Positions 33,957 through 38,612 of a stretch of 64,000 bases of DNA are shown in pieces. Each line of letters starts with the position of its first letter. Within the stretch, counting starts at the first letter, position 1. Where the stretch lies: assembly GCA_017554145.1 (NCBI GenBank), contig JAFZIZ010000016.1, forward strand, positions 36,554 to 100,553. The letters are read 5' to 3'. The notes beneath the pieces are model-generated. The model saw only the letters and a program-made list of their open reading frames with translations. It ran no database searches and was not told where the DNA came from. A program made the translations under genes and the position numbers. This DNA comes from Prevotella sp. (GTDB lineage: Bacteria; Bacteroidota; Bacteroidia; Bacteroidales; Bacteroidaceae).

Positions 33957-34148
33957 TTATTCCTCGGTAGCGCGCAGCTTCTGTACGTAAATAGCGTGTT
34001 CCATCTTCAGGCGCTTCAGTACAGAGGGCTTGTCAAACTGCTGACGGCGGCGGAGTTCCTTTACCACGCCTGTCTTTTCAAACTTTCTCTTAAACTTCTT
34101 GAGAGCCTTTTCGATGTTCTCGCCTTCCTTTACTGGTACAATAATCAT
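33957..34148 (-). CDS. rpsU: 30S ribosomal protein S21
   Basis: 63 residues, MIIVPVKEGENIEKALKKFK start, then KTGVVKELRRRQQFDKPSVL, typical for S21, which helps mRNA binding at the anti-Shine-Dalgarno region. Own promoter at 34206-34236. Confidence 0.96.
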   Translation of the reverse strand: MIIVPVKEGENIEKALKKFKRKFEKTGVVKELRRRQQFDKPSVLKRLKMEHAIYVQKLRATEE

Positions 34149-34205
34149 GTTGTTTTTTGATTTAATTCTTTTAAGTTAAACTTCTATTTTGCAATTAAGC
34201 GGGTG

Positions 34206-34236
34206 CAAAATTACAACTTATTTACGAATTGACCAA
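34206..34236 (-). promoter_or_regulatory. Promoter of rpsU
   Basis: Minus strand TTG (34234-34236), 20-bp spacer, TAATTTTG (34206-34213). Confidence 0.8.
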
Positions 34237-34271
34237 GTTTTTTTTGTTTTTTTTATTCCAAAGCCCTCATA

Positions 34272-35009
34272 TTACTTCATTTGCCTCATCACCGAAACGG
34301 GAGATTCTTCCCTCACAATCTTCCGCTCTACCTGCTGATAGAGGGTATAACAAACCTCATGGGGATCCAACAGGATATTATACTCAAAATAGTCTTTCAG
34401 TCCTTTGTTAATATCCTGACTGTTATGTAAAGTGGCCTTATTACTGTCTATCAGCAGACATACAACAACATCCTCGTCATGTTGCGTTTCGTCATCTTGC
34501 AGGTTCAGTGTCCAGGCAATATCCTCCCAACGCATCATCAGCATCCCGTCAGCATGCTGTTCCCTCAATGCGCGACGGATACGCGTCAACTTCATTTTTG
34601 TTTCCGCACTCGTGAGTTTCTGAGAAAGGGTCTCGATAAGATGAGGATTGGCAGCATTCTTCTTAATGATGCGCTGCAAGGGATTGAAATTCGTACGTAG
34701 CGTGATACCACCTTGCCGTTTCAGCGCCTCCTTCAACTCCTCCACATCAACCGTTGGATTCAGCATCCCGTCGATACCCACATCCTTGTCAGCCATATCC
34801 TCCAGTTCACGTCCTATCCATTCGGCTATCGTCATGTTTCCAGCATCCTGAGAGACACCATTCACCCACAAGGCGATACTCTTCAGTGTCACTACCACAT
34901 ATACCTTCCATTCAGGACGCAGGAAAGAGAATACGAAAGCACTCAAATGCTCCCGTCTCAGTTCCTCCCTCACCTCTTCTATCCGTTCCTTAATGATTTC
35001 CTGTTCCAT
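34272..35009 (-). CDS. Orphan creatinase/aminopeptidase-P N-terminal domain protein
   Basis: 245 residues without signal peptide. The pattern follows the two N-terminal domains of Xaa-Pro aminopeptidase: first IKERIEEVREELRREHLSAF and IALWVNGVSQDAGNMTIAEW, with GIDGMLNPTVDVEELKEAL; then a second domain starting KLTRIRRALREQHADGMLMM and RWEDIAWTLNLQ. In full-length family members these are followed by the metal-binding pita-bread catalytic domain; here the protein stops, so the D, D, H, E, E ligands are absent. Either a decayed enzyme or a non-catalytic partner. Own promoter with full boxes (35084-35115), no frameshift seen. Family assignment by pattern is moderately certain. Confidence 0.65.
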   Translation of the reverse strand: MEQEIIKERIEEVREELRREHLSAFVFSFLRPEWKVYVVVTLKSIALWVNGVSQDAGNMTIAEWIGRELEDMADKDVGIDGMLNPTVDVEELKEALKRQGGITLRTNFNPLQRIIKKNAANPHLIETLSQKLTSAETKMKLTRIRRALREQHADGMLMMRWEDIAWTLNLQDDETQHDEDVVVCLLIDSNKATLHNSQDINKGLKDYFEYNILLDPHEVCYTLYQQVERKIVREESPVSVMRQMK

Positions 35010-35083
35010 CCTCCCACTCTTCCCTATTACTTCTTTGATTATACTTTTATTTTACCTTTTATAGTCCTTTTTCTTTCAGACTA

Positions 35084-35115
35084 CAAAAATACACAATAAA
35101 GAGCAACCTACCAAA
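35084..35115 (-). promoter_or_regulatory. Promoter of the orphan aminopeptidase-P-like gene
   Basis: Minus strand TTTG (35112-35115), 20-bp spacer, TATTTTTG (35084-35091). The spacer is nearly the same as that of the RAYT promoter (see findings). Confidence 0.75.
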
Positions 35116-35127
35116 TTTCTTACTTCT

Positions 35128-36153
35128 TTATTTCATATCCCTTTCTTCGTCCCGTTCGTCGCACTTTAGTGCGATGTTAGCCAAATCCTCAGCATAATCA
35201 TTCATGTCAAGGCATTGTGCTCGTGTGATACGTTTCGCGGCTGTTTCTGCACTATAATCAGCATAAGGAGCCAAAACCAACAGAAAGCCATCCGAACAAC
35301 CCGCCAAATCTCTACCAGATGGATAAATAAATTTCCCGTCCAAACCACGATTAACAATATGTATCATCGGCATTTCCTCCTTGTAACAAGCATCATATAC
35401 GGCTTTCTCTGCCGGCGAGATGAAAGGCGATATCAGCACTGTTCCTCGCCGTGCTTCTCTGAGATATGTTGCTACCTCCGCTTGTATCTGCTCCTCTGTC
35501 AGATGACGATGGCAGCGAACTTGTAGGCGTTCCGGATATGTTACCAAAAACGTATTACCAACAGCTGTATATTGATGTCCTTTCTTTCCTGCCGAGAAAT
35601 CATAGACCTTGCGCAAGCGATTTGGGAAATGGATTTTGAGCCAGAGGCGGCGTGGATTATCTTTCAGATAGGCTATCCACGTTTGTAGTTGCCCTTTGCG
35701 AAATAAGATGCGATCATTAAAGCCGCGTGAGAAAAGAGGCGTTTTCTCTGAACTTAAGTTCTGAGCACGGAACGAAACATCATCCCAAAAAGCATGAGAA
35801 CAAGCGCTCTTCCATGCTGCGATTATCTTACCCAAAGCATAGTCAGTTGGGAGCGTGTCACGGACATATAGTATGCCGTGGAAATGGTCTGGCATGATTT
35901 GATAATGGAGCACTTGAACTCGGCAGCCAGTCTTCTTCGTTGTCTCTGTTGCTATCTTTCGGAATGCCTCAGCCACGTACGTACCCAAGGCCGTTGGCAC
36001 TATCTCTGCCGTATTCGGGCTATCGCCCACAAGCGAACCTAGAATACGCTTGCGGTCAACCGTCGTTACTGTAATCAGATAGATGCATACCGAAGTATAG
36101 TCATGCTTCTCCATTCGGCGCAACCTATTATGTTTGACAGGTGCTTTTTCCAT
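35128..36153 (-). CDS. REP-associated Y1 transposase (RAYT) with C-terminal extra domain
   Basis: 341 residues. The N-terminal part (about 15-185) matches the TnpA_REP Y1 family: an HUH motif in IMPDHFHGILYV (H90, H92) and the candidate nucleophile Y162 in WIAYLKDNPRRLW. Such enzymes cut single-stranded DNA at REP palindromes. The part after about residue 200 is not usual for RAYTs: KRGTVLISPF-type strand-loop (RGTVLISPFISPAEKAVYDA, then MPMIHIVNRGLDGK, SGRDLAGCSDGFLLVLAP) suggests a Rossmann-like domain of the DprA/LOG kind (inference). REP-like palindromes lie on both sides; the copy at 35145-35178 is inside the last codons (CDERDEERDMK). Promoter at 36280-36311. Confidence 0.85.
   Translation of the reverse strand: MEKAPVKHNRLRRMEKHDYTSVCIYLITVTTVDRKRILGSLVGDSPNTAEIVPTALGTYVAEAFRKIATETTKKTGCRVQVLHYQIMPDHFHGILYVRDTLPTDYALGKIIAAWKSACSHAFWDDVSFRAQNLSSEKTPLFSRGFNDRILFRKGQLQTWIAYLKDNPRRLWLKIHFPNRLRKVYDFSAGKKGHQYTAVGNTFLVTYPERLQVRCHRHLTEEQIQAEVATYLREARRGTVLISPFISPAEKAVYDACYKEEMPMIHIVNRGLDGKFIYPSGRDLAGCSDGFLLVLAPYADYSAETAAKRITRAQCLDMNDYAEDLANIALKCDERDEERDMK
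35145..35178 (-). repeat. REP-like palindromic repeat, copy 1, inside the RAYT 3' end
   Basis: CTTCGTCCCGTTCG lead followed by the hairpin TCGCACTTTAGTGCGA (35159-35174). Same orientation as copies 2 and 3 on the other side of the gene. Confidence 0.85.
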
Positions 36154-36173
36154 TCTTTCTGTTATCTTGATTT

Positions 36174-36274
36174 CTTCGTCCTGTTTGTCGCATTTTAGTG
36201 CGATGTTTGCATTTTTCTTCGTCCCGTTCGTCGCACTTCAGTGCGATGCATGCCCCCTCTCTTCGTCCTATTCG
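36174..36274 (-). repeat. REP-like array upstream of RAYT (copies 2, 3 and partial 4)
   Basis: Copy 2 starts at 36174 (hairpin 36188-36203, one G-U type variation), copy 3 at 36217 (hairpin 36231-36246), and a partial copy 4 at 36261 has the CTTCGTCC lead but no hairpin. Starts are 43 and 44 bp apart. The array lies in the RAYT 5' leader, between promoter and start codon. Confidence 0.85.
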
Positions 36275-36279
36275 AGACG

Positions 36280-36311
36280 CGAAGGTACAAAATAAAAAGC
36301 AACCAGCCAAA
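36280..36311 (-). promoter_or_regulatory. Promoter of the RAYT gene
   Basis: Minus strand TTTG (36308-36311), 20-bp spacer, TACCTTCG (36280-36287). The transcript leader of about 120 nt would carry the REP hairpins. Confidence 0.75.
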
Positions 36312-36378
36312 TGGAAAATGGCATGATACAGCTAAATTCCCTTCTATCATCGACCAAAGGGAAATAAATAACAATAAT

Positions 36379-37638
36379 TTAACCTTCAATTCTGATTTCG
36401 ACATCATCGATCGTTGTTGTCTTTGATATCACATTAACCATATCGGCAACAGAAAGATTCTCAAATCGGGTATTCCTATCCTTATGTATTGGAATGACTC
36501 CAATACTTGGATTCGTGATGTGACATACATCTTCCAATGTCTTTACATCAGCATGTCCGCTTGTATGAAGATAGTGATATTGTCCATGAAAGAGATTCAC
36601 GAAGTCAATGACGTTTTTGTTCTTTTGCTCTTCTGTGCCTTTATAATAACCTTTCCATATTGAGTAAATCAGTTCTGCATTAGGAAAATAATACAGCATC
36701 TTCCTCACAAAGTCCAATTGACTGCTTGCCCTAACAGGCATAATAAAACCATGTGGTCTCAAGTCTTTATCAAAGTTACAACTATCTCCCAATACAACAG
36801 TTGTGTCATCATCGAAATTGAAAAGCTCACTATGCTTGGCAGCATATTTTGTAAATATATCAAGGACGGATTTCTGATATGTGTCACATAAGAACTTAGC
36901 CCCTGTTTCCTTACATGCAGCATGGAAAGATGCTAAACGGTCCATATCCGTTGAAGAACATAGAGCAAACATATAATGAGGACAATTATCTTTTTTCAGC
37001 AATCTGATGGCACCAGTCTTAATAGTACATTCATGGTCAACCCTCTCGTCAAGTCTACTAAGCATAGTTCCTTCAGTTATCAGTATGTCTATATTCTGTG
37101 CCTTGGCTTGAAGAATCTTCATAAGTCCCTTACTAAGATAGCCATGTCCCCTGAAATCTCCTGTATGAAGAATTTTACGATGATCTGCCTCGATAAGGAA
37201 CATATAGGAATTAAAAGCAGAATGGTCGACAAAGAATGGTGTAATGAAAATCTCTCCTTTTCCACCTACGTTATACCTGTGTGCTTCTTCATAGGTTTTC
37301 ATATTCTGTGCAACCATCATGTCACGCTTGTATTTGGAATCATGGGAAGCTAATACTGTATATTTGCAGATATTCACCTCTTTAGCACCTTCCCCAATAT
37401 ATTGTGCAATATCATCTGGAACGAAACTACTAAGTCCTACATGGTCTCCATGGAAATGGGTATAATAGATACCATCCGCATCCTTTGTGATGTCCTCTAT
37501 TTCCTGTTTTGTAAACTCTCTGCCATTGCTGCCAGGTAGATTACTTCCTAAGTCAATAATAATTTTAGTATGGGCAGTGGATATCTCCGTTATACATCCA
37601 CCTATTTGGTCTATGCCACGATGAATGACGATTCTCAT
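36379..37638 (-). CDS. Metallo-beta-lactamase/beta-CASP fold hydrolase (RNase J-like)
   Basis: 419 residues, no signal peptide. Zinc motif THFHGDHVGLSS (about 80-91; HxHxDH), second ligand region VDHSAFNSYMFLIEAD, and HTGDFRGHG; then a beta-CASP-like insertion (ITEGTMLSRLD; FALCSSTDMDRLASFHAACK) and the late histidine in HYLHTSGHADVKTL. These are the features of RNA- or DNA-processing beta-CASP nucleases such as RNase J and CPSF-73, but the protein is shorter than RNase J and lacks its C-terminal domain. It overlaps the upstream gene by 4 bp (ATGA), so it is translationally coupled. The region looks more AT-rich than its neighbours, which with the RAYT next door suggests horizontal acquisition. 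Substrate unknown. Confidence 0.85.
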   Translation of the reverse strand: MRIVIHRGIDQIGGCITEISTAHTKIIIDLGSNLPGSNGREFTKQEIEDITKDADGIYYTHFHGDHVGLSSFVPDDIAQYIGEGAKEVNICKYTVLASHDSKYKRDMMVAQNMKTYEEAHRYNVGGKGEIFITPFFVDHSAFNSYMFLIEADHRKILHTGDFRGHGYLSKGLMKILQAKAQNIDILITEGTMLSRLDERVDHECTIKTGAIRLLKKDNCPHYMFALCSSTDMDRLASFHAACKETGAKFLCDTYQKSVLDIFTKYAAKHSELFNFDDDTTVVLGDSCNFDKDLRPHGFIMPVRASSQLDFVRKMLYYFPNAELIYSIWKGYYKGTEEQKNKNVIDFVNLFHGQYHYLHTSGHADVKTLEDVCHITNPSIGVIPIHKDRNTRFENLSVADMVNVISKTTTIDDVEIRIEG

Positions 37639-38522
37639 AAGTAAATATAATTTGGTTTAACATGAATGGTGGCTAATGCTTCTTCTATTGCTTCAATCCT
37701 CTTAGTTCTTTCATCCGTTGTCTTTTCATAGTTGTTGGCAATAAGTAACTGAGGTTCAGAAGACATTGTAACAGTATTGATATCTTTCACATCAGGAACA
37801 GTTAAACCTAGAATATTCTTCTTAATAGTGTAAAGTTTTCGATAGTATTTAGTCAAAGCCTCATGGTTCACACGAAGGAAATCCCTATAGTTTTCCATTT
37901 GAGTTAATATTTCAGGATTACCATCAGTATTACGCAGGCGATTGTCTCCGATTCTTTTCAGTTCTTCAAAAACAAATTGGTTGTTTTCTATTTTAATCAA
38001 GTCAATCCGAATGGTATTCTTTGAACCTTTTTCAAACTGGTGTGCAAATTCAGAATCAATATATTTGTCTCGCCCATTAATGATTAATGTTCCCTGTATT
38101 AGTTTCTCCTTCGTAGACTCTCCATTATCTTCTTTTGAATAAACATCTGTGATATTATCCTTTAATTCGGATAATCTTGAAGTCAACCATTCCTCACAAT
38201 CTGTATACTTTGCCACATAAATCGTTTTCCCCTTAGAATTGATGGTCTTTCTGTAATAATTGGAATCGCGTTCGTCTTTATATCCCATATACTTAGGGTG
38301 AGTAGTTACTTTTACCTTTTGTAACCTGAAGTCATATTTGGCTTCTGCAATTCTACCACCCATGAAATAGATATCGATGATATTCTGTTTTCTAACCTCA
38401 ATATAGAGGTCTTTATCCGCCTTGACCACAGACCACCATGCAGGGGCATCCTCACCTGCAAGCGTTGAGAACAATTGATGCTCTGCCTTCAACATTTCAT
38501 GATTGAATAATGCAATTTTCAT
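37635..38522 (-). CDS. Putative PD-(D/E)XK nuclease-like protein
   Basis: 295 residues from ATG 38522 (MKIALFNHEMLKAEHQLFST). The frame is open 24 codons further up, but the promoter -7 box (38582-38589) lies inside that extension, so the shorter start is right. No close family recognised. Residues near 185-215 have the order expected for a PD-(D/E)XK core: IRIDLIKIENNQFVFEELKR, i.e. an Asp in a strand followed by a hydrophobic strand ending in E-x-K (EELK), then GDNRLRNTDGNPEILTQMEN. The N-terminal half is rich in aromatic and charged residues. First gene of a two-gene unit with the MBL hydrolase; stop and start overlap by 4 bp. Nuclease call is inference from motif only. Confidence 0.6.
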   Translation of the reverse strand: MKIALFNHEMLKAEHQLFSTLAGEDAPAWWSVVKADKDLYIEVRKQNIIDIYFMGGRIAEAKYDFRLQKVKVTTHPKYMGYKDERDSNYYRKTINSKGKTIYVAKYTDCEEWLTSRLSELKDNITDVYSKEDNGESTKEKLIQGTLIINGRDKYIDSEFAHQFEKGSKNTIRIDLIKIENNQFVFEELKRIGDNRLRNTDGNPEILTQMENYRDFLRVNHEALTKYYRKLYTIKKNILGLTVPDVKDINTVTMSSEPQLLIANNYEKTTDERTKRIEAIEEALATIHVKPNYIYL

Positions 38523-38581
38523 GACTCCTTTATTCTTAACTTTCTTGTTTCTGTTTTGAAGTATTGAATGAGTGCCTAATA

Positions 38582-38612
38582 CAAAGATACTCATTATTTC
38601 TTAAAGTTGCAA
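38582..38612 (-). promoter_or_regulatory. Promoter of the nuclease-MBL operon
   Basis: Minus strand TTG (38610-38612), 20-bp spacer, TATCTTTG (38582-38589). Decides the start of the first gene. Confidence 0.8.

Follow-up and report, generated by a model that had tools for sequence, protein, structure and literature searches.

Here, we describe a gene on the minus strand of a Prevotella contig that we read as the centre of a new RAYT/REP variant, in which the enzyme would cut at repeats of its own and the element would move. On balance, the locus is probably a RAYT-type element: a gene for an HUH single-strand endonuclease, bracketed by its own recognition units, each consisting of a hairpin, 7 nt and a GACG tag, and all on one strand. 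A wider proposal, which we put forward tentatively and as a possibility only, is that the gene belongs to a separate Bacteroidales RAYT branch fused to a DprA-like domain, with palindromes that are compatible with protein coding and lie in frame both in the branch's own RAYT gene and, in genomes such as G246, in host genes, where one frame falls within lipoprotein signal peptides and another within enzyme loops (GltD, CarA). The features of the locus, numbered along the window (the whole 64,000-nucleotide stretch of DNA that was analysed), are as follows.

35128..36153, minus strand: RAYT-like Y1 HUH gene of 341 aa, with MPDHFHG and with Y162 in YLKDNPRR
35878..35886, minus strand: codons of the HUH motif, H90-F91-H92 (computed position)
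35668..35670, minus strand: codon of the presumed catalytic tyrosine Y162, present in 130 of 130 aligned rows
35179..35601, minus strand: C-terminal domain, approximately residues 185-325, distantly DprA-like in profile comparisons
35746..35765, minus strand: intragenic palindrome in the loop that holds the internal hairpin of relatives, diverged from the flanking copies
35159..35174, minus strand: 3' hairpin, within the last codons of the ORF (exact pattern match)
35145..35158, minus strand: tag of the 3' hairpin, CGAACGGGACGAAG on the gene strand (tag search)
36188..36203, minus strand: leader hairpin closest to the start codon (one mismatch)
36174..36187, minus strand: tag of the start-proximal leader hairpin (tag search)
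36231..36246, minus strand: outer leader hairpin (exact pattern match)
36217..36230, minus strand: tag of the outer leader hairpin (tag search)
36261..36274, minus strand: lone tag without a hairpin, the "partial copy" of an earlier note on this DNA (tag search and spacing)

The motif residues of the enzyme core are conserved among the aligned loci. In a draw of 301 genomes of the host family, 81 had a match at E of 1e-5 or below, and 130 loci were aligned as a non-random sample, 50 of them from the host-family search and chosen regions and 80 being the best 80 of at least 460 confirmed loci, mainly from rumen or gut Prevotella and Bacteroidales MAGs. H90 and H92 are present in 129 of the 130 rows, the remaining row having a gap; conservation of MPDH is circular for the 80 rows that had been fetched with an MPDH pattern. 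In the 41 aligned proteins whose rows came from protein searches, and in 50 of 50, MPDHxH, Y162, N166 and P167 are invariant; DHxH is found in all 50 loci, and the window protein itself carries DHFH and YLKDNP. By analogy with the family, Y162 would be the catalytic residue. The best NCBIfam match of the protein is REP_Tyr_transpos (NF047646), at 42.1 bits below the cut-off of 80, and all 41 members match that model at E up to 0.1; the protein is therefore supported as RAYT-like and of a divergent branch, and we do not assign it to the REP_Tyr_transpos equivalog. Pfam PF01797 (Y1_Tnp) gave 20.5 bits against a cut-off of 23 with the 341-aa protein, and the IS200 transposase model NF033573 gave 16.4 bits against 55. 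The earlier note had named a Y1 HUH enzyme of RAYT type here, a claim staked on the HUH residues being conserved in homologues, and both the invariance of HUH and Tyr in 41 of 41 members and the best, if sub-cut-off, NCBIfam match bear it out. Over 15 pairs from six relatives, dN lies well below dS in the core and in the C-terminal domain (with dS saturated in three of the 15 core comparisons), and both are under purifying selection. Neither the RAYT nor its three neighbour genes matched any of the defence models, and there was no match in either a plasmid collection or a phage collection.

With up to two mismatches allowed, the hairpin pattern occurs three times in the 64-kb window, against a mean of 0.07 and a maximum of 2 in 100 shuffles, and all three hairpin-tag units share one orientation, so that the bracketing of the gene by copies of one palindrome stands as first described. 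The tag CTTCGTCCYRTTCG has four copies (at 35145, 36174, 36217 and 36261) and one unrelated match with two mismatches, and by itself is less striking, the shuffle mean being 1.02 and five matches being reached in two shuffles. Along the gene strand the order is lone tag, hairpin-tag, hairpin-tag and start codon, followed at the far end by hairpin-tag and stop; the leader repeats are spaced at 43 and 44 nt, which agrees with the 5' array of two full copies and one partial copy that had been noticed before. It is possible that the lone tag at 36261..36274 is a left cleavage or target site. The copy reported at the 3' end is likewise present, but it does not follow the gene: this hairpin-tag unit encodes the last residues of the RAYT itself (...NIALKCDERDEE...). 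In the window's units CGAACGG is followed by GACG, the tag thus lying 7 nt from the TCGCACT stem, and CGTC is present on one strand. The proposed likeness of these lead tags to those of REPs does not hold, the tag being GACG at a distance of 7 nt and not GTAG at the foot; in the units examined, no GTAG-type tetranucleotide was found at the foot of the hairpin.

For the RAYT element we infer mobility, on which the comparison with relatives bears. The window protein is 83-87% identical to those of five relatives (L005, L106, L107, L118 and L119), and similarity to these reaches no further than 131 nt upstream of codon R12 and 49 nt past codon N318, with ends that fall in or near hairpins. Among all pairs of the six, with flanks compared up to 1.5 kb (L106 having just 311 nt after N318), similarity reaches at most 135 nt on the 5' side and 129 nt on the 3' side; the one exception to the dissimilar flanks is a separate second match of 243 nt, downstream, between L107 and L119. 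L108, L109 and L116 have a common genomic context, and L006 reads like L116. The stems of related units differ yet pair, and the tag is related: the 5' unit of L119 has TCGCACT as in the window, L005, L106 and L118 have CGCACT, the 3' unit of L119 has CACACT, L107 has TTGCACT and L006 has GGCACT, in a comparison from which units with stems of fewer than 5 pairs were left out and which is thus not a covariation test. In G340 (82%), which ranked nearest by XerC among 60 genomes of the genus, the window's site has 226 nt between anchors that are 3932 nt apart in the window, and the extra sequence of about 3.7 kb comprises two genes besides the RAYT, one of metallo-beta-lactamase fold and one of 319 aa. 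An empty site for just the 1.1-kb RAYT unit was not found; the G340 comparison does not isolate the RAYT junctions. Seven relatives were compared at the window's locus, of which G340 alone was usable as an empty site, the others holding different sequence or ending early.

The neighbouring genes are described here for their own sake. Downstream of the RAYT, the gene at 34272-35009 (minus strand) appears to be a degraded aminopeptidase P gene with a partial Creatinase_N_2 match and is without stretches that are present in the corresponding G340 gene. The metallo-beta-lactamase-fold gene at 36379-37638 (minus strand) has a weak RMMBL match and overlaps the 319-aa gene at 37635-38594 (minus strand), for which Pfam gave no match; this pair is absent from the corresponding G340 site.

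The assembly of the window genome (G000) comprises 2.80 Mb in 38 contigs and is 83.5% complete. Three sites in it match the hairpin with at most one mismatch, all at the RAYT locus, and hairpin plus tag with at most two mismatches again gave three sites, 3/3 at that locus. The "complete REP unit" of the earlier note, if taken as a dispersed REP population, accordingly fails in this 83.5%-complete assembly, where copies lie only at the gene; a genome-wide hairpin count was the check on which that note had let its own claim stand or fall, and as regards dispersal here it went against it. Searching the genome for the tag alone gave 11 matches, four of them at the locus, and the reversed control gave 12. 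Three of the seven off-locus matches were read and rejected as REPs, no hairpin preceding the tag, and the sites C5:38814 and C37:134987 were rejected because, although they match the hairpin pattern of the paralogues, the tag is absent. Two further family members are encoded in the genome (on C3 and C19), each with its own internal hairpin, and the nearest other protein matches to the window RAYT are 39 and 43% identical. The repeat was seen solely at the gene in the window genome, G262 and G010 (3, 2 and 7 places, respectively). The element in the window genome is a single unit without offspring REPs.

Arrays away from any RAYT gene occur in a relative. Contig C54 of G241 (L092; assembly 69% complete) carries, between other ORFs, a head-to-tail array of the window's repeat with 14 tags 38-43 nt apart, 11 of them with a full hairpin, and in the 12 kb fetched there no P0001 match was found beside it except a repeat-coded peptide. 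Repeats with another stem and the same tag, without a RAYT, lie on C4 (L093) and C62 (L239) of the same genome. In the covered parts of these contigs, the search for a cognate RAYT returned only the repeat-coded peptide and one stray match (E 0.58) at C54 or C4, and none on C62. As separate observations, the C62 repeats flank genes that, from translation only, read like polysaccharide-export genes, and at L094 (G038:C20:9855) one REP unit sits directly at the end of an array that looks like CRISPR by eye.

A further palindrome, missed by the earlier note, lies inside the window's ORF at 35746-35765, with a tag-like GAACGAA in the opposite orientation; compared with the flanking copies it gave no match (8.5 and 8.0). 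Of the 130 loci, 128 were comparable, 64 were left after removing those at least 75% identical, and 63 entered the palindrome test. In the loop between the post-HUH helix and the Tyr motif, a palindrome scoring at least 8 is present in 33 of these 63 loci and was not found in the other 30, while control windows taken from the same ORFs reach this score in 30 of 2178 cases; in 39 of 63 the internal palindrome beats all controls of its own locus. When repeats were compared within loci, palindromy not being required, matches above the cross-locus 99th percentile were obtained in 12 of 64 loci for the internal and 5' regions, in 12 for the internal and 3' regions and in 19 for the 5' and 3' regions, with about 0.6 expected for each, and the locus's own partner was strictly the best in 11, 9 and 17. 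At least one of the three comparisons lies above the 99th percentile in 28 of the 64 loci and none does in 36, and the internal-region medians are barely off background (9.0 and 8.5). Palindrome presence clusters on a quick tree (threshold 7, 37 of 64 loci positive, 20 of 61 inner branches open), with 10 changes against a shuffled mean of 20.8 and none of 500 shuffles as low. L114 and L117, identical in 283 of 284 residues outside the loop, have loops of 40 and 99 aa, and the RAYT L048 of G246 holds five internal copies of a CTGCGGC-type stem. Since the internal hairpin is similar to the flanking copies in many lineages, it may track the specificity of the enzyme.

Hairpins are also dispersed through some of the related genomes. 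The pattern YTGCGRYNNNRYCGCAR, counted in 10 chosen genomes with a reversed control of 0-2, occurs 30 times in G246, 17 times in G082, 7 in G233, 6 in G122 and 4 in the window genome, with one occurrence in each of three genomes and none in two; hairpins here are exact pattern matches, and 22 of the 30 sites in G246 were fetched and read. An [GA]AC lies exactly 7 nt from the stem, on either side, at 14 of the 17 dispersed hairpins of G082 and 15 of the 22 of G246, no other offset between 0 and 19 being shared by more than 4 sites. Exact GACG is found at 5 of 17 and 2 of 22 of these sites, the tag letters varying outside the window's clade, and over 41 internal hairpins from the whole set the signal is less sharp, up to 18 of them having AAC or GAC 5-7 nt away on their 3' side. 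Six of the 17 hairpins in G082 appear to form three pairs within a single duplicated stretch, and of the 16 outside the RAYT, nine are overlapped fully or partly by an ORF of 100 aa or more, counting both strands, and seven are not. Twenty of the 22 in G246 are covered by an ORF of 150 aa or longer, again with both strands counted, and "extragenic" therefore does not fit this genome. Among these hairpins inside host ORFs (L249-L268), ten of the 22 fall in lipoprotein-like signal peptides by a custom pattern and an eleventh (L253) by eye, and others lie in genes whose translations suggest a sigma factor, CarA, GltD and proteins of the outer membrane. The palindrome in GltD and CarA codes a variable loop just 0-4 residues longer than in palindrome-free homologues, so that replacement or drift could explain it just as well as insertion; the sister genome G335 has a decayed form of the palindrome in GltD, and G233 has a palindrome in the same gene. 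The CTGCGGC-type stem of the G246 signal peptides is the one also found within L048, and among the RAYTs examined none was found to match the CTGCGAT stem. The copies in host genes may have been made by RAYTs. Two side observations in G246 concern its CarA (L261), where two further in-frame inserts, TPSPSP.GEG...RGAGGEA, look like a second coding repeat family, and P0002, for which a first look gave 86 candidates.

The C-terminal domain sets the protein apart. G199 and E249 are invariant over the 130 rows. In a profile search of PDB the four best matches were DprA chains (E 0.11-0.16), followed by ribosomal protein S3 at 0.61, and hhalign of the domain against DprA gave E=0.0014 at a probability of 18%; a Pfam scan of 35 domain sequences returned no DprA (PF02481) match. 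A transitive link runs through L246, a stand-alone 162-aa DprA-like ORF in G501, which the domain profile finds at 1.1e-9 and which itself reaches 2.7e-6 against PF02481 (27.2 bits, under the cut-off of 29.6); the ORF adjoining it looks like Fic/Doc. Across the phylum, the domain profile was matched in 2 of 247 genomes, namely that of the window and another that has a stand-alone ORF. As judged from profiles, a likeness of the domain to DprA is likely, the direct link being weak. In the open-licence PubMed Central literature we found nothing that joins RAYT with DprA, no paper on tnpAREP in Bacteroides and none relevant on Prevotella REPs with a transposase gene.

As those are described in the portions of PMC6006769, PMC3733652 and PMC10969869 drawn on here, the window family fully fits none of the compared systems. 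According to the sections used of Quentin et al. 2018 (PMC6006769), RAYT subclasses 2.4 and 2.6 occur in Bacteroidetes, and the earlier remark that such systems are best known from Proteobacteria undersells what is in print. With the RAYT/TnpA-REP class 2 of those sections the window shares a Y1 HUH enzyme, low copy number and a gene flanked by cognate palindromes, the last being present in the window itself and, family-wide, corresponding to the 5'-3' match in 19 of 64 loci for which palindromy was not required. It differs in its 341 aa, its DprA-like C-terminal domain and its DHFH and YLKDNP motifs, and in having GACG 7 nt off the stem where class 2 has GT[AG]G at the foot. Subclass 2.4, to which REPs inside RAYT genes are there described as special, is similar in its in-frame REPs of variable length between HUH and Tyr and in its occurrence in Bacteroidetes, but its insertion between beta3 and alphaC, its NH[IFV]H and YIxNNP motifs and its GT[AG]G feet do not fit the window family, in which, by sequence alignment, the insertion appears to come after the helix following HUH. 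Subclass 2.6 is also found in Bacteroidetes and has an insertion between alphaC and beta4 and atypical flanking structures, whereas its median of 179 aa, its NH[LIV]H and YIH[QN]NP motifs and a table entry without a distal C-terminal domain set it apart from the window. The CGTC-tagged REPs, including Rickettsia RPE-4 and RPE-6, are similar in their CGTC, their copies inside ORFs and their presence in Bacteroidetes; in the part used of Di Nocera et al. 2013 (PMC3733652) they are repeats without a dedicated transposase, with copies in ORFs listed and N-terminal ones possibly reflecting mis-annotated starts. Their stem of 8-9 bp begins with AT and their tail is mostly CCA, against a 7-nt spacer and other stems in the window; they flank no transposase gene in that part of the source, whereas the window's units bracket a RAYT gene; and exact GACG does not hold throughout the wider window family. 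The Rickettsia palindromes are summarised in the consulted part of a MITE review (PMC10969869).

Insertion sequences of the IS200/IS605 group have hairpins near both ends on one strand and use HUH/Tyr chemistry. A simple IS200-like transposon of one gene, with the hairpins as its two ends, the leader array as a local duplication and no REP population, would account for a repeat seen only at the gene in three genomes and for a gene and hairpins set in dissimilar flanks among relatives, yet we think it unlikely: the sequence is single copy in the window genome, the relatives hold arrays and gene-free copies such as that of G241, other members have internal hairpins, and in G082 and G246 similar hairpins stand apart from the RAYT genes. 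The YLKDNP of the window protein is, moreover, not the Y[IV]ENQ given as the IS200 Tyr motif in the sections used of PMC6006769.

We regard as quite unlikely a domesticated host protein, immobile today, whose leader and ORF hairpins would be operators or mRNA elements for self-control; such a protein would suit the positions of the leader and internal hairpins, the strong purifying selection on both domains and the lack of offspring copies in the window genome, but dissimilar flanks in relatives, repeat numbers that change between near-identical genes and gene-free arrays all speak against it. That the hairpins are terminators, or palindromes that arose by chance next to a decaying transposase gene, is very improbable. 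Terminator-like matches do occur (the stretch has two, where shuffled sequence averages 1.3), one of them weak and on the plus strand at 36186, but none lies on the gene strand at the hairpins, and Rfam gave no match at gathering score in 34000-37500 (two matches, both far below). Three hairpins where 0.07 are expected, an intact reading frame and dN below dS argue against this explanation as well.

For the RAYT-type element that we prefer, we propose that the enzyme would bind the hairpin on single-stranded DNA and cut at the tag. Cutting at a pair of tags would mobilise the gene unit or, alternatively, one hairpin-tag unit on its own, and head-to-tail arrays would result from re-joining next to a tag already in place. 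Many members keep an extra hairpin in the ORF, within a loop that tolerates it, and the DprA-like domain may hold single-stranded DNA or link cutting to recombination.

How REPs arise and move is still debated. In this family the likely target stands at up to three places per gene and varies by member, which would provide a natural set of candidate enzyme-target pairs. If the proposed Bacteroidales branch with protein-compatible palindromes is real, it would be a transposase-linked counterpart of the Rickettsia coding palindromes, whose repeat class is without a transposase in the part of PMC3733652 drawn on here. If these enzymes make the copies in host genes, RAYTs would be linked to the spread of palindromes through proteins.
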